In this document: positions 9,114 through 15,529 of the stretch, one piece after another
Numbering within the stretch: position 1 is the stretch's first letter
How the letters are laid out: each line of letters begins with the position of its first letter
From: Burkholderiales bacterium 70-64
Lineage (GTDB): Bacteria > Pseudomonadota > Gammaproteobacteria > Burkholderiales > Burkholderiaceae_E
Direction: 5' to 3'
Assembly: GCA_001898645.1 (NCBI GenBank)
Contig: MKUQ01000016.1
Coordinates: forward strand, 186,001 to 250,000
DNA: 64,000 nucleotides
Position numbers and translations under genes: made by a program
Notes under the pieces: model-generated
Seen by the model: only the letters and a program-made list of their open reading frames with translations
Database searches by the model: none
Told to the model about the DNA's origin: nothing

Positions 9114-10448
9114 GTGGCCCGCAAGCTCTACATCCGTACCTTCGGCTGCCAGATGAACGAGTACGACTCGGCGCGCATGGCCGACGTGCTCGAACGCTCC
9201 GAGGGCGCCGAGCGCACCGATTGCCTCGAGGATGCCGACATCGTGCTCTTCAACACCTGCTCGGTGCGCGAGAAGGCGCAGGAGAAGATGTTCTCCGACC
9301 TCGGGCGCATGCGCGCGCTCAAGGAGCAGCGGCCCGGCCTGATCGTCGGGGTCGGAGGCTGCGTCGCCAGCCAGGAGGGCGAGGCGATCGTTCGCCGCGC
9401 GCCGTACGTCGACCTGGTGTTCGGCCCGCAGACGCTGCATCGCCTGCCCGAGCTGCTGGCGCGGCGGCGCGACACCGGTGCGGCGCAGGTCGACATCAGT
9501 TTCCCCGAGATCGAGAAGTTCGACCGCCTGCCGCCGGCGCGCACCGAAGGCGCGACCGCGTTCGTGTCGGTGATGGAAGGCTGCAGCAAGTACTGCAGCT
9601 TCTGCGTCGTGCCGTACACGCGCGGTGACGAGGTGTCGCGCCCGCTCGAGGACGTGCTGGTCGAGATCGCCGGCCTTGCCGACCAGGGCGTACGCGAGGT
9701 CACCCTGCTCGGGCAGAACGTCAACGCCTACCGCGGCACCATGCCCGATGGGGGCGTCGCCGACCTGGCGCTGCTCATCGAGTACGTGTGCGAGATCCCC
9801 GGCATCGACCGGGTGCGCTATACCACCTCGCATCCCAAGGAGTTCACGCAGCAGCTGATCGATGCCTACGGCCGGCTGCCCAAGCTCGTCGACCACGTCC
9901 ACCTGCCGGTGCAGTCGGGCTCGGATCGCGTGCTCGCCGCGATGAAGCGCGGCTACACGGTGCTCGAGTACAAGGCCATCGTGCGCCGGCTGCGCGCGGT
10001 GCGCCCGTCGGTATGCCTGTCGTCCGACTTCATCGTCGGGTTCCCGGGCGAAACCGAGGCCGACTTCGAGCGCACGCTGCGGCTCGTCGAGGAGATCGGC
10101 TTCGACCATTCGTTCTCCTTCGTCTACAGCCCGCGGCCCGGCACGCCGGCCGCCGACCTGCCCGACGACACGCCGCAGGCGGTCAAGCTGGAGCGGCTGC
10201 AGCGGCTGCAGGCCGCGATCGACGCCGGCGCCCGATGCATCAGCGAGGCGATGGTGGGCGGCATCGAGTCGGTGCTCGTCGAAGGCCACGCGCGCAAGAA
10301 TGGGCAGGAGCTGGCCGGCCGCACGAGCAACAACCGAGTCGTGAACTTCGCCGGGCACGAGTGCCTGATCGGGCGCTTCGCCGACGTCCGGATCACCGCC
10401 GCGCTGCCGCACTCGCTGCGCGGCGAGTGGATGCCGGACACGGCATGA
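9114..10448 (+). CDS. miaB: tRNA-2-methylthio-N6-dimethylallyladenosine synthase
   Basis: Radical-SAM methylthiotransferase that converts i6A37 to ms2i6A37 in tRNAs reading UNN codons. 444 aa. The N-terminal UPF0004 domain holds Cys12, Cys49 and Cys83, ligands of the auxiliary [4Fe-4S] cluster. The radical-SAM motif CSKYCSFC is at 157-164, and a C-terminal TRAM domain includes the [11 protein letters not shown] stretch. The start GTG at 9114 gives the conserved [14 protein letters not shown] beginning. In many Burkholderiales miaB is followed directly by phoH; here two surface-protein genes are interposed. The stop overlaps the ATG of the next gene. Confidence 0.96.
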
Positions 10449-11929
10449 CGCACCCCCGGCATCATCGGCCGCAGGCGGCCCCCGGCGCCCGCAGCCGCGG
10501 CGCCGGGCTTCGCTGCGCGCGCGTGATCCTGTGGGTGCTGGCCGCCGCGTTGCCGCTGGCCTCGGCGGCGCAATCGCACCAGGCACCGCTGGCGGTGCCC
10601 CTGCCAGACGCTGTTCGATCGATCGCGCAGGCGCCCGTGCCGGACGAGGCGCCGGCCTCCGCTGCCTCCCGTACCTCGCTGGCCGATCTGCTCGCGAACG
10701 CGCGCACGCTGATCGATGCCGACCGGGCCGAGGAAGCCTGGCGAGCGCTCGAGGCGCGGCTCGACGACTACGCCGGCGACCCCGAGTTCGACTACCTGCT
10801 CGGCCTGGCCGCCCTCGATGCGGGCCATCCGGGCCACGCCATCCTCGCCCTCGAGCGCGTCCTGATCGTGCGGCCCGATTTCCTCCAGGCGCGCGCCGAG
10901 ATCGCGCGCGCCTACTTCAATGCCCGGGAGCGCGAGAACGCCCGCCGCGAATTCGAGACCGTCGCCGCGCAGCGCATCCCCGAACCCGTGCGCCAGGTGA
11001 TCGGCCGCTATCTCGATGCGATCCAGCGCGTCGACGAGGAGAGCCGCGGCAAGCTGACCGGTCTGCTCGAGTTCGAGCTCGGCTACGACTCGAACGTGAA
11101 CTTCGGCAGCTCCAGCGGCCAGTGGGTGCTCGCTGACGGAACCGCGGTGGTGCCGCTCGGCGTCAGCCTTCCGAGAAGTAGTGCCGCGCTTTCCGCGGCG
11201 GGATCGCTAAACTGGACTGCGCCGATCGGCGGCGGCTGGCAGTGGACAGCCGGCGGCCGCGCCACGATTCGCCGCTATCCCGGCGCGCATACACTGGACC
11301 AGGACCAACTCGACCTTTCATCGGGGCTCACCTTCCGACGCGGCTGCCACCGATACAACATGCTTGCCCAGGCCCAGAACCTGCAATTGGGCGGTGCGGC
11401 ATTCCGCAACGCGCTGGGTGCGATCGTCCAGTGGCAGTGCGATCTGGACGCTCGCAACCAGGTCGGTGCCTATGCCCAGCACTTCCTGCTCGACTTCCCG
11501 GACGAGCCGGCGCGCGACGCGCGCCGCAGCGGGGTGGGCCTGACGCTCGCTCACGTGTTCGAGGGCGGCGGACGCCCGATCCTGCTCGCCGGCATCCAGG
11601 CAGGCCGGGAAACGTCGCGCCGCGGGCTGGACAACCTGACCTATGGATATCAGGGCGCACGCGTCGCCGTGAGCCGCACGCTGGGCGACGGCTGGCGCGG
11701 TTTCGCCACCCTGTCGTACGAGACGCGCGACTTCGACGGGATCGAACCCTTCTTCGGCGTCGCGCGCTACGACCGGCAGACCGACCTGGGGATCGGCGCC
11801 GAGCGCCCCCTCTCGGGCGCGTGGTCGATCGCCCCGTCGCTCACCTTCACCCGCAACCGCTCCACGCTGGCGCCCAACGACTTCAGACGCACGCAGGCCG
11901 GGGTGATGGTGCGCTACCGGTTCCCGTGA
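10445..11929 (+). CDS. SLAM-like TPR plus outer-membrane beta-barrel protein (DUF560 type)
   Basis: 494 aa. A signal peptide (hydrophobic [15 protein letters not shown], about 25-40) is followed by a region with TPR-like helices (about 75-200: [58 protein letters not shown]). A C-terminal beta-rich part begins [13 protein letters not shown] and ends in MVRYRFP with a terminal aromatic and Pro. This layout matches surface lipoprotein assembly modulator (SLAM, type XI secretion) proteins, which move client proteins across the outer membrane. The gene overlaps miaB (ATGA) and sits 2 bp before the FecR gene, a possible client. SLAM identity is inferred from architecture; it may only be a related TPR-barrel protein. 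Confidence 0.72.
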
Positions 11930-11931
11930 CG

Positions 11932-14544
11932 ATGGCGGGCGCGGCGCTTCGCGGTTTCCCGGCGGCCCGTGGGCGGACGGCAGGGCCGGCGCGGTGGTGG
12001 GCGCGGGCCTGCGCCGTGCTCGCGTGCGGCCTGTTCGCGCAATGGGCGATTGCCGCGGACGGCCGCGCTCTGGTCGCTTCGGGCGAGGTGACGCTGCAGC
12101 GGCCGCAGGCAACGCCGGTGCCGATGCAGGCCGGCACCGAAGTCGAGCGCGGCGACCTGATCCGCACCGGCAGTGACGGTCGCGTGCAGATCCGCTTCAC
12201 CGACGGCTCGATCGTCTCGCTGCAGCCCGGCACGACCTTCCGCATCGACGACTACCGCTTCGACGCCGGGGGCCAGCGCGGCTTCTTCTTCCTGCTGCGC
12301 GGCGCGCTGCGCACGGTCACCGGCGCGATCGGCAAGCGCAACCACGACGACTACCGGATGCAGACCCCGACCGCCACGGTCGGAGTGCGCGGCACCGAGT
12401 ACGTGGCCGAGCAGACCGTCTGCGATCCGCGCTGCGCGCCGGGCCCGCGCGAAGGGCTGCGCGTCTCGGTGTCGCAGGGCCGCATCGTGGTCGCCACGCG
12501 CGGCGGCGCGCTCGAAGTCGGACAGGGCGAATCGGCGGCGGCGGACGACCCCGATGCGGCCCCGCGCACGACCGAGCAGGGCCCGGTGCTGCCGCCGATC
12601 AGCTACCAGCAGCGCGATACGCCGGCGACGATGGTCGCCAAGGGCGGTGGGCAGGGCGGAAGCGGCGGTTCGGGTTCGGGTTCGGGTTCGGGTGCCGGCG
12701 TGGCAGCGGCGGGCGGCGTGGTGCAGAAAGCCGGGGACGGCGCAGCGGGCACGAGCAACGACCCGGATGCGTCGCCCGGGCCGGGTTCGGCCTTTGCGAC
12801 AAGCCCGACCTCCACGATGGACACGGCTTCGGCGCCGGGATCCGCTCCGGCGTCCGGGCCGGGCTCGGCAACCGGTTCGGGCGCTGCTGCGTCTTCGGGT
12901 TTGGGCACCGGGCGGATGCCGGCCTCCGGATCGGGCGGCGGAGTGGGTGGCGTGGTCGCCGGCGTGGTGATGTCCGCGCCCCCGGATTCCCCGTCCGGCT
13001 CCTCGACCGGCTCGCTGGCCAGTTCTTCGGCCGGCTCCACCTCCGATTCCTCATCGGCTTCGTCGTCGGCCCCGGTCGGTAAGGCGGCCTGGCCCACCGG
13101 TGCCACCGGAGGGCCAGGCTCCGGATCGGCACCCCTCGCGACGACACCGGGAGGGTCGGCGGGTTCCGCGGATTCGGCGGGCGATCTCGCAGCCTGGGGG
13201 TCGGGACTGCTCGCAGGCCCGGGCGGCAGCGCAGGAAATGGCGGGTCGAGCACCGGCGGCGGGGCGGCCGGCAGCGCAACCTCGACCGGCACCTCCACCG
13301 GCACCTCCACTGGGGCTGACGGATCGGTTGCGGAGAATCCGGCAGACGGCGCGGGCTGGCCGGCACTCCCCCAAGAGGACGTCTCGCCGAACCAGCAGCG
13401 GGGTGCGGATGGCCAGCTCGTCGCCGTCTCCGAGGTAGCCGTCGTGACATCGCCTCCGAGCGGCTCGGGAACCGGCAGCGGGGGTGGCAATGCCGGGGGT
13501 GGCGACACGGGTGGCGGCAACACCGGCGGCGGTAGCACTGGCGGGAGCGACACGGGAGGCGGCAGCACCGGAGGCGGTAACAACGGGGGCGGTAGCACCG
13601 GCGGGGGCGACACCGGTGGCGGCAACACCGGTGGCGGCAACACCGGGGGTGGCGATACGGGAGGCGGCAATACCGGCGGCGGCAACAACGGTGGCGGTGA
13701 TACCGGCGGTGGCAATACTGGCGGCGGTGACACAGGAGGCGGCGGCAACGCCGGCAGCAATCCGCCCCCATTGACGCCGGGCGAGGGAAGCATAGGCAGC
13801 GAGCGGACCGTCCTGCTGCGACAGGTCCCGTTCGATGACTGGCTGCGGCTGTTCTCGGCCGGCTCCCGCGTGGTGCTCGACGATACGCTCGGCGTGCAGT
13901 CGATCGGCCTGTGCCCGGATCGATTCTGCGTGTCGCGCGGCACGGCCAAGCTGGCCGAAGCGGGCTCGGATCCCTATACGAGCTGGGGTCGCTGGACCGA
14001 CGGCAAGGTTCAGCTGCGCTTCGAAGTCCTGGGCTTCCAGGCTTCGCTCCCGTCGTCGCTGACGGCCAACGAAGGGATGCACTATCTCGTGGGCGTACCC
14101 TCGGTCAGCATCCCGACCAGCGGCGTGTTCGGCTACAGCCTGATCGGGGCGACCCACCCGACGATCAGCAACGGCAGCGTCGCGCCCGGCACGTTCCAGG
14201 CGACGGCGGGCGTGGCGTTCGCCCCCGGCCAGGCCGCCCGCGTGGGGCTCGACGGCACCGTCACGATCGGCGGAGGCTCGTACGGGTTCGCCACCGCCGG
14301 AGGCGCCGCCGACCCGACGCGCAGCACGCTGACGACGGATGCAGGCCACGCGTTCAGCGGCACGCTCGCGGTCACGCGCACGGGCAGCGGCCCGCTGACC
14401 TGCGGCGGCACCGGCTGCTCGGTGAACCTGCAGGGTGGTCTCTTCGGTCCGGATGCGGCACGCCTGGGCTTGAGCTACCAGATCCAGGCAGGCGCCTCCG
14501 GCAGTCCTACAATCTCGGGAGTTGGAGTCTTCCAGAAGCAGTGA
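11932..14544 (+). CDS. Large exported FecR-domain protein with Gly-rich repeats and C-terminal barrel-like domain
   Basis: 870 aa. Residues 1-42 look like a signal peptide ending AIAAD. A VLAC at 29-32 resembles a lipobox but is preceded by a very short hydrophobic stretch, so lipidation is doubtful. A FecR domain spans about 45-165 (RGDLIRTGSDGRVQI, DGSIVSLQPGT, TPTATVGVRGTEY). Then comes a Gly/Ser/Ala-rich linker (about 235-510), a GGGxT pentapeptide array (516-607) and a 250-residue beta-rich C-terminal domain. That domain contains SLTANEGMHYLVG, LTCGGTGCSVNLQGGLFGPDAARLGLSYQI and a final ISGVGVFQK, recalling the barrel of TbpB-like SLAM clients. No sigma factor is nearby, so it does not look like a FecI/FecR sensor. 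Likely a surface or periplasmic protein; function unknown. Confidence 0.8.
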   Translation: MAGAALRGFPAARGRTAGPARWWARACAVLACGLFAQWAIAADGRALVASGEVTLQRPQATPVPMQAGTEVERGDLIRTGSDGRVQIRFTDGSIVSLQPGTTFRIDDYRFDAGGQRGFFFLLRGALRTVTGAIGKRNHDDYRMQTPTATVGVRGTEYVAEQTVCDPRCAPGPREGLRVSVSQGRIVVATRGGALEVGQGESAAADDPDAAPRTTEQGPVLPPISYQQRDTPATMVAKGGGQGGSGGSGSGSGSGAGVAAAGGVVQKAGDGAAGTSNDPDASPGPGSAFATSPTSTMDTASAPGSAPASGPGSATGSGAAASSGLGTGRMPASGSGGGVGGVVAGVVMSAPPDSPSGSSTGSLASSSAGSTSDSSSASSSAPVGKAAWPTGATGGPGSGSAPLATTPGGSAGSADSAGDLAAWGSGLLAGPGGSAGNGGSSTGGGAAGSATSTGTSTGTSTGADGSVAENPADGAGWPALPQEDVSPNQQRGADGQLVAVSEVAVVTSPPSGSGTGSGGGNAGGGDTGGGNTGGGSTGGSDTGGGSTGGGNNGGGSTGGGDTGGGNTGGGNTGGGDTGGGNTGGGNNGGGDTGGGNTGGGDTGGGGNAGSNPPPLTPGEGSIGSERTVLLRQVPFDDWLRLFSAGSRVVLDDTLGVQSIGLCPDRFCVSRGTAKLAEAGSDPYTSWGRWTDGKVQLRFEVLGFQASLPSSLTANEGMHYLVGVPSVSIPTSGVFGYSLIGATHPTISNGSVAPGTFQATAGVAFAPGQAARVGLDGTVTIGGGSYGFATAGGAADPTRSTLTTDAGHAFSGTLAVTRTGSGPLTCGGTGCSVNLQGGLFGPDAARLGLSYQIQAGASGSPTISGVGVFQKQ
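13480..13755 (+). repeat. In-frame 15-bp tandem repeat coding (GGGxT)n
   Basis: About 18 copies of a 15-bp unit encoding Gly-Gly-Gly-(Asn/Asp/Ser)-(Thr/Asn/Ala). Codons vary between copies (ggt/ggc/gga/ggg, acc/act/aca), so the array is old or has been under drift rather than freshly duplicated. One copy is degenerate (GGSDT). Copy number is likely to vary by slippage without breaking the frame. Confidence 0.95.
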
Positions 14545-15529
14545 AGCACCCGAGACCGCCGCGTTGAGAACCCGCTCGCTCGAATACACGCCCGACGTTG
14601 CCGATAATCGCCGCCTGGCCAACCTGTGCGGCGCCATCGATCAGAACCTGCGCCAGATCGAGGAAGCCTTCGACGTGCGCATCGCGCGCCGCGGCGACAG
14701 CTTCAGCGTGGAAGGGACGGCGGCCGCCTCGCGGCGCGCGGTCGACGCGCTCAAGCACTTCTACGCCCGGGCCGAGCAGGCGCTGTCGCTGGAGGACATC
14801 CAGCTCGGGCTGGTCGAGATGAGGGGTGCGCCTGCCCAGGCGGCGGCCGCCAACGACCCCGATGCGCCCGTGCTGCACACGCGCCGCAGTGACCTGCAGG
14901 GGCGCACCCCGCGCCAGCGCGAGTACCTGCGCAACATCCTGTCGCACGACATCACCTTCGGCATCGGGCCGGCCGGCACCGGCAAGACCTACCTCGCCGT
15001 GGCATGCGCCGTCGACGCGCTCGAACGCGACGCGATCAAGCGCATCGTGCTCACGCGCCCGGCCGTCGAGGCGGGCGAACGCCTCGGCTTCCTGCCGGGC
15101 GATCTCGCGCAGAAGGTCGATCCCTACCTGCGCCCGCTGTACGACGCGCTCTACGACCTGCTCGGCTTCGACCGCACGGCGCGCATGTTCGAGAAGCAGG
15201 CGATCGAGATCGCGCCGCTCGCCTACATGCGCGGACGCACCCTGAACCACTCCTTCATCATTCTCGACGAGGCGCAGAACACGACCCCCGAGCAGATGAA
15301 GATGTTCCTCACGCGCATCGGCTTCGGCTCGCGCACGGTGGTCACCGGCGACATGACGCAGATCGACCTGCCCAAGGGCCAGGCCTCGGGCCTGATCGAA
15401 GCGCGCCGCGTGCTGCGCCGCGTGCGAGGCCTGGCCTTCACCGAGTTCGACAGCAGCGACGTGGTGCGCCACCCGCTGGTCGCGCGCATCGTCGACGCCT
15501 ATGAGCAGGACGCCTCGGAAAACGGCTGA
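14522..15529 (+). CDS. phoH: PhoH-like ATPase (PhoL)
   Basis: P-loop NTPase of the PhoH family, about 335 aa from the upstream TTG. A KH-like N-terminal region (about 30-100) precedes the PhoH ATPase domain with Walker A GPAGTGKT at 149-156 and Walker B LDEAQNTT. Its position before ybeY matches the PhoH-YbeY-CorC order widespread in Proteobacteria and suggests a role in RNA or ribosome quality control. The start is uncertain: TTG 14522 overlaps the FecR gene by 23 bp, while TTG 14564 gives a protein 14 residues shorter; neither has a strong ribosome site. The 3' end overlaps ybeY by 29 bp. Confidence 0.93.
   Translation: MESSRSSEAPETAALRTRSLEYTPDVADNRRLANLCGAIDQNLRQIEEAFDVRIARRGDSFSVEGTAAASRRAVDALKHFYARAEQALSLEDIQLGLVEMRGAPAQAAAANDPDAPVLHTRRSDLQGRTPRQREYLRNILSHDITFGIGPAGTGKTYLAVACAVDALERDAIKRIVLTRPAVEAGERLGFLPGDLAQKVDPYLRPLYDALYDLLGFDRTARMFEKQAIEIAPLAYMRGRTLNHSFIILDEAQNTTPEQMKMFLTRIGFGSRTVVTGDMTQIDLPKGQASGLIEARRVLRRVRGLAFTEFDSSDVVRHPLVARIVDAYEQDASENG

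Follow-up and report, generated by a model that had tools for sequence, protein, structure and literature searches.

Type XI secretion systems (T11SS) are built around outer-membrane proteins (OMPs) of the Slam group (DUF560, SlipAM; Slam1, NilB, HrpB), in which tetratricopeptide repeats (TPRs) precede a barrel of 14 strands and whose genes have a cargo-barrel gene as neighbour. TbpB, the hemophilins and fHbp are T11SS cargo (PMC12282271). Of the ten clusters into which T11SS OMPs fall, nine, largely of water and soil origin, have no characterised protein (PMC8406197), and OMPs of the marine cluster 3 rarely lie beside a barrel cargo (PMC12282271). The stretch analysed here (the window) comprises 64,000 nucleotides of Burkholderiales bacterium 70-64 (contig MKUQ01000016.1, positions 186,001 to 250,000). 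Between miaB and phoH it carries genes for a SLAM-like protein and for a protein with a FecR domain and a C-terminal domain predicted to be of cargo type. These two genes probably constitute a type XI (Slam/DUF560) translocon-cargo pair whose FecR protein would be exported to the outside of the cell; we put the probability of this reading at roughly three in four.

The first protein resembles the described T11SS OMPs in having TPRs followed by a predicted 14-strand barrel, a SlipAM match and a neighbouring cargo-barrel gene. It differs in falling into a separate group of our quick tree and in having a partner with FecR, and the OMP gene comes first and the partner second; in addition, no TonB receptor was recognised by eye at the miaB-phoH locus of the window. 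The second protein is like T11SS cargo (hemophilin/HphA, TbpB, fHbp and the soluble HrpC type) in its predicted C-terminal handle and barrel and in a terminal motif resembling G-x-[FL]-[FY]-G-x-x-A, and its presumed signal, which by eye looks like a substrate of signal peptidase I (SPI), would be like that of soluble TXISS-1B cargo (PMC8406197), whereas the N-terminal FecR domain, a 380-residue Gly/Ser linker and a conserved WGR motif set it apart.

PF04773, the FecR family, best known from iron signalling within the cell envelope, is shared with FecIRA and with LysM-FecR/CHASE2 systems, among them a Burkholderia system in which LysM-FecR is joined by a CHASE2 kinase (PMC5192318). In contrast to these, FecR is the sole Pfam domain over cut-off in the studied protein, where Pfam found no anti-sigma or LysM domain and a cargo-type barrel stands instead; the direct neighbours of its gene and locus are miaB, the SLAM-like gene and phoH. 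In a Campylobacterota FecR-TPR-CHASE2 cluster the genes for a FecR 'outer membrane protein' and a TPR protein are neighbours and may represent a related pair; in the excerpt concerned the cluster is not identified as T11SS (PMC9239204). The FecR region also matched the NCBIfam models of Leptospira LipL45 and Lsa33 (E = 2.4e-10 and 1.5e-5), far below their curated cut-offs. These are surface adhesins or lipoproteins by name, and we know of no SLAM pair or cargo barrel for them. With the BcsC and PelB polymer porins the SLAM-like protein shares fold similarity only. The word FecR is absent from the two main T11SS surveys, and no description of a FecR cargo of T11SS was found in open-licence literature, so that this absence is not proof.

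A sequence-only reading of the window had placed the pair inside the miaB-phoH-ybeY order, and the open reading frames (ORFs) bear out both the interruption and its coordinates. The two genes lie on the + strand, 2 nt apart. The first ATG of the SLAM-like gene overlaps the miaB stop (ATGA; miaB ends at 10448), and phoH (about 14522-15529) and then ybeY follow 3' of the FecR-barrel gene. That reading had also named a FecR domain, a Gly-rich linker and a pentapeptide array, all of which are present in the 870-aa protein, in the order signal-like N-terminus (by eye), FecR, linker of about 380 residues and C-terminal beta domain. The features are as follows.

10445..11929, + strand: SLAM-like (T11SS OMP-type) protein, 494 aa (ORF translation, PF04575 SlipAM match, tree branch)
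10445..10570, + strand: presumed signal peptide of the SLAM-like protein, cleavage near A42 (by eye)
10661..11044, + strand: TPR helices of the SLAM-like protein (TPR_19 and weak TPR_Slam matches; model helices 31-158)
11051..11923, + strand: predicted 14-strand outer-membrane barrel (model strands 161-451; SlipAM match at residues 212-480)
11932..14544, + strand: FecR-barrel protein, 870 aa, proposed cargo (ORF, translation, Pfam)
11932..12054, + strand: presumed SPI-type signal peptide, AIA/ADG cleavage, no lipobox common to relatives (by eye)
12154..12411, + strand: FecR domain, PF04773 (E = 7.4e-14, residues 75-160)
12622..13767, + strand: low-complexity linker, 33% Gly and 16% Ser (composition of residues 231-612)
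13480..13749, + strand: array of 18 Gly-rich pentapeptides (residues 517-606; Tandem Repeats Finder, periods 15 and 60 nt)
13777..14541, + strand: C-terminal beta domain, predicted handle-like strands and TbpB/hemophilin-type barrel (AlphaFold2, Foldseek, profile search)
14122..14538, + strand: last eight strands, presumed to form the barrel and to act as translocation signal (strands listed for the model)

By sequence, the first protein is a member of SlipAM: PF04575 scored 25.2 bits against a gathering cut-off of 22, the level at which T11SS OMPs are recognised. In an alignment of its relatives (A6), 10 of the 12 members (window included) matched SlipAM at E <= 1 (best 1.5e-12), and in the 300 genomes of the order 41 places of this type, their coordinates matched by reading, did so at E <= 1e-5 (up to 60.6 bits). 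A model from 12 sequences (predicted local distance difference test, pLDDT, 82.8; predicted template modelling score, pTM, 0.64) has TPR helices and then 14 long strands, with two short strands in a low-confidence stretch, and thus predicts the T11SS OMP layout of N-terminal TPRs and C-terminal 14-strand barrel. Together with a signal-like N-terminus seen by eye, this agrees with the SLAM layout first proposed for the 494-aa protein. The protein had no match in the plasmid collection.

As a single sequence, the C-terminal domain of the FecR protein gave nothing useful in Pfam, NCBIfam, PDB or genome contigs. There was no Pfam match to TbpB_B_D in the window protein itself and no equivalog over cut-off in NCBIfam, and TbpB was reached only with family profiles. 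Alignment A1 of the domain (37 sequences) has 20 invariant columns, including those of WGR and of HY and some with glycine in the terminal segment; TbpB_B_D was matched by 20 of its 37 members at E <= 1 (best 2e-4) and was the only Pfam family matched by more than one of them. Searched against PDB sequences, the A1 profile found TbpB first (E = 2e-4), with a hemophilin included (E = 0.29). An AlphaFold2 model from 19 sequences (the window and 18 relatives; pLDDT 89.6, pTM 0.88) places the eight last strands, about 6-12 residues each, at 116-254, after handle-like strands, and the best 33 Foldseek matches of this model in PDB were all HphA/hemophilin, TbpB, NHBA or fHbp. The domain is therefore predicted to be a TbpB/hemophilin-type, eight-strand barrel, in line with the earlier observation that it ends like TbpB-type client barrels. 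WGR is found in all 37 A1 sequences, and WGRW in 36 of 68 order-wide.

The distribution of the pair was followed in the family, the Lautropia/Zeimonas relatives, with 74 genomes (47 of them good) and 37 fetched loci. The C-terminal domain was found in 38/74 genomes and in 26 of the 47 good ones. With strong scores defined as E < 1e-100 for the SLAM-like gene and E < 1e-20 for the barrel, both genes were present in 36 of the 74 genomes and neither in another 36; one genome (G016) had the barrel only, its contig ending just past fecR, and one (G029) had weak, unlinked matches to each. Carriers were mostly Burkholderiaceae, Burkholderiales, Lautropia or Zeimonas arvi. The order miaB - SLAM-like - FecR - barrel - phoH - ybeY was seen in 21 of the 37 loci; 15 were cut by a contig end before miaB, with barrel, phoH and ybeY still in order, and in one (from G029) the weak match was located elsewhere. 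Fifteen of the 37 genomes without a strong pair (G016 aside) were inspected: the miaB and phoH matches were about 40-175 bp apart in 12, and G069 had no orthologous locus. Since the pair is present in some genomes and a tight miaB-phoH gap is found in others, this housekeeping cluster has a slot that the pair occupies or from which it was lost. In G002 and G003 (L228 2735-5755, L229 2920-5994) this slot is filled by a gene whose product, unrelated to the pair and about 1000 aa long, has the zinc-protease-like motif HEVGHTLGLRHN, and the slot seems to accept different genes.

Outside the family, the sample of the order comprised 300 genomes, 96 of which had a match to the SLAM-like profile at E <= 1e-8; 60 loci holding the 61 strongest places were fetched, plus 16 of the next ones. 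SLAM-like ORFs were counted above 100 bits and 250 model positions, and a FecR ORF was scored as directly downstream within 0.45 kb on the same strand. Such a FecR ORF followed 72 of the 77 SLAM-like ORFs (71 loci, 26 family codes, varied neighbourhoods), a proportion that describes the FecR branch and not all SLAMs, because the query came from FecR-linked loci. Only SLAM (71 loci) and FecR (69 loci) recurred in nearly all of the 71 loci; behind them, no same-strand family whose gene could be recognised reached more than 12, the neighbour families being partly identified. Among the five SLAM-like ORFs without a downstream FecR, one had FecR just upstream (L161), one had it on the opposite strand (L108) and one had none (L107). 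In L145 a FecR-less barrel protein lies directly downstream of the SLAM-like gene. The same pair was found in Zeimonas arvi (L083) and Pseudorhodoferax aquiterrae (L088). Synteny in 21/37 family loci together with recurrence in varied neighbourhoods across the order makes the arrangement more than chance. The co-occurrence of the two genes and the predicted TbpB-type domain thus support the translocon-client interpretation put forward in the sequence-only reading.

The barrel was sought in the 72 FecR partners with a clean profile, built only from the family barrels and those of SLAM-adjacent FecR proteins. It was detected in 54, and in 55 with wider iteration, so that most FecR partners, though not all, carry a barrel. 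Exceptionally long ORFs, of partners or of neighbours, were seen in L106 (1891-6993), L090 (7477-11400) and L138 (1379-6160), of 1701, 1308 and 1594 aa; their whole-sequence barrel E-values, far beyond those of one domain, suggest several barrel copies.

As a control, Pfam SlipAM was searched in the 300 order genomes (59 with a match) and 30 loci were taken, with flanks of about 1.5 kb, some shorter. FecR was absent from the flanks of all 18 SLAMs scoring below 100 bits with our profile and lay downstream of all nine SLAMs of the FecR type (A6-type); three intermediate SLAMs (L214, L215, L217) had no FecR downstream, L215 having one upstream. The clean barrel profile nevertheless matched proteins beside 4 of the 21 FecR-less SLAM loci (L217, 5e-8; L199, 1e-6; L202, 1.5e-6; L212, 4e-4), with no match beside the other 17, and these matches tie the FecR barrels by sequence to ordinary T11SS cargo. 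In a quick tree of 70 SLAMs, in which the FecR-linked rows of the fetched order loci were thinned to every third and some branches are long, a group of 46 rows (Shimodaira-Hasegawa-like approximate likelihood ratio support 99) held all 39 FecR-linked rows and 7 others, and the FecR label changed 7 times over the tree against 23 in shuffles. A second SLAM-like copy in L127, the last of the five SLAM-like ORFs without a downstream FecR, falls outside this group; that locus combines three FecR ORFs with a SLAM-like gene from each of two branches. The FecR branch was not matched to any published cluster number. A weak control came from 12 FecR ORFs that are not downstream partners, 11 of them in SLAM loci of the order (some probably second-frame shadows) and one elsewhere in the genome of the window: the clean profile found a barrel in two (L124, a tandem copy; L168, beside a broken SLAM), and the wider profile in a third (L161).

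In the phylum sample, 26 of the 397 genomes had a SLAM-like match at E <= 1e-15, and 13 of the 22 loci from beyond the order had FecR directly downstream. In L174 and L175, from another class, FecR-group SLAM-like genes are followed by proteins whose N-termini look FecR-like by eye, FecR not being recognised in them by Pfam; the L175 partner has a Pro-Thr repeat and a barrel. These partners are reminiscent of the 'Sphingomonas surface proteins' (PMC12282271).

Several observations weigh against the translocon-cargo reading. The SlipAM match of the window protein barely exceeds its cut-off, its TPR_Slam match lies under its own (Pfam), and no Slam was among the 50 fold matches listed for its model. 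The superpositions of the C-terminal model are loose (template modelling score 0.29-0.44 by query length, root-mean-square deviation 7-19 Å, first 29 matches). TbpB_B_D was found in only 1 of 68 partner C-termini of other families at E <= 0.1 (Pfam), and the order-wide barrel homology therefore rests on our own iterated profiles. The clean profile also missed a cargo-like protein beside another SLAM of the same genome, on contig C44 (see below). The order-wide SLAM query, built as it was, favours FecR-linked orthologues, and 3 of the 72 downstream FecR matches are weak (L137, 23 bits; L163, 32 bits; L155, 45 bits). Eighteen of the 72 partners had no barrel by the clean profile: some are cut by contig ends (L111, L141), some seem to lack it, and in L137 and L138 the FecR ORF is overlapped by or precedes another ORF with a barrel. 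Outside the order the barrel was detected in 2 of the 13 FecR-linked loci; the fetched stretch ended within six, and seven had a complete FecR ORF (314-458 aa) without a barrel. FecR linkage therefore extends further than the detectable FecR-barrel fusion. Adjacency, claimed from the window, holds there, but the genes do not always touch: in genus g11 the SLAM-like and FecR matched stretches lie about 0.6-2.5 kb apart (L061, L066, L067, L068, L070), L066 (2369-4029) has other ORFs between them, one AAA/zeta-toxin-like by reading, and in L065 (599-2573) other genes precede fecR, the SLAM-like gene of that genome lying on another contig.

Taken together, the architecture, the predicted folds, the way in which the sequences of the two partners relate to T11SS OMPs and cargo, and the linkage in many contexts give a FecR-cargo branch of T11SS good computational support; translocation, its direction and the surface location of the product are what we infer from it. 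In the mechanism that we propose, the FecR protein would be exported by Sec through a type-I signal peptide and kept unfolded in the periplasm, as Skp keeps TbpB (PMC9090332). Its C-terminal TbpB/hemophilin-type barrel would be recognised by the TPR and 14-strand SLAM-like protein, which would move it across the outer membrane. The FecR domain would then end outside the cell on a long flexible linker, released or surface-held, in the place of the N-terminal effector domain of known cargo (transferrin-, heme- or factor-H-binding). The AIA/ADG-type cleavage sites, read by eye, suggest a soluble (SPI) rather than lipidated protein; the predicted cargo-type barrel thus keeps the client part of the original 'surface-displayed client', but 'secreted' may replace 'displayed'. 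What the exported domain does is a guess: ligand or matrix binding, or sensing.

An unlikely alternative, the strongest of three, is an envelope sensor, with the TPR-barrel protein as receptor in the outer membrane and a periplasmic FecR partner that docks on it from inside by its barrel and relays a signal inward, CHASE2 cyclases being one possible target. In its favour, FecR has a signalling role in FecIRA, and partners without a barrel exist. Seven of the 71 loci have a CHASE2 cyclase gene (assigned by Pfam from one representative) close to the pair, and in L088 (from about 10564) an adenylate/guanylate cyclase homologue is directly 3' of it; the Campylobacterota cluster joins a FecR outer-membrane protein and a TPR protein to a CHASE2 adenylate cyclase (PMC9239204). 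However, 64 of the 71 loci have no such cyclase in the fetched stretch, the cyclase query had no match at E <= 1e-3 in the 64-kb window, the C-terminal domain is predicted to share its fold with secreted T11SS cargo and the OMP is a SlipAM. The sequence-only reading had stressed that no sigma factor lies nearby; inspection by eye of the ORFs at 6-19 kb revealed none, no dedicated search having been made.

A good deal less probable is a BcsC/PelB-like porin, for polysaccharide or otherwise, with the FecR protein as a wall- or polymer-binding accessory. The fold matches listed for the SLAM-like model were BcsC, OmpG, PelB, porins and other barrels, the first three being the best, NCBIfam gave weak BcsC and MamA TPR matches, and the partly identified neighbour families leave room for a polymer gene; but any protein with TPRs and a barrel might give such fold matches, the SlipAM score exceeds its cut-off while the BcsC equivalog reaches 16.1 of 858 bits, and the cargo-type barrel of the partner is left unexplained. 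That the C-terminal barrel is instead an OmpA/OmpX-like membrane barrel with FecR hanging in the periplasm, as its eight strands of about 6-12 residues might allow, is the least probable of all, given that its best 33 fold matches, the TbpB/hemophilin/NHBA/fHbp barrels, are soluble domains and that C-termini such as VGVFQKQ and VAVMKRE lack the terminal aromatic beta-signal expected of clients of the barrel assembly machinery.

A second, more canonical T11SS locus lies in the same genome on contig C44 (L150 9195-10085 (-), L208 1501-2637 (-)). It holds FecR, a TonB-receptor-like gene (by eye), a hemophilin-like small protein (TbpB_B_D 24.8 bits, cut-off 26; found by the wider profile) and a SLAM with 125.8 SlipAM bits, and a Lysobacter operon likewise holds a sigma factor, FecR, a TonB transporter, a Slam-dependent lipoprotein and Slam (PMC11233812). 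Two kinds of association between FecR and T11SS are thus seen: their genes are neighbours within iron operons, whereas the studied pair has FecR fused to the cargo-type domain. Twelve loci (8 family codes) have, downstream of fecR, a TPR and glycosyltransferase family 41 (GT41; O-GlcNAc-transferase-like, Pfam on one representative) gene, which lies within about 200 bp of fecR in 7 of the 12 (examples are L098 8911-11055, L099 2616-4532 and L103 2304-4508, with nine further loci); the enzyme could glycosylate the cargo. The CHASE2 cyclase was also considered as a fixed third partner and rejected: at E <= 1e-10 it was found in only 8 of the 60 loci, with a weak match in one of the eight.

It is tempting, though doubtful, to join these observations into one T11SS branch, common in Burkholderiales and also present elsewhere in Pseudomonadota, that evolved for FecR export, with FecR outside the cell as a general ligand-/matrix-binding or sensing module, GT41 glycosylating the cargo in one sub-branch and CHASE2 cyclases reading out the state of the system in others; this view is slightly weakened because complete FecR partners outside the class lacked the barrel.

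The FecR-cargo reading would give T11SS a distinct SLAM branch with a recognisable and usually adjacent candidate cargo, and the pair is more widespread than the window alone could tell, occurring in many environmental bacteria. FecR, regarded as a periplasmic signalling domain, would be moved to a possible place on the outside of the cell, and not every FecR gene should be annotated as an anti-sigma factor.

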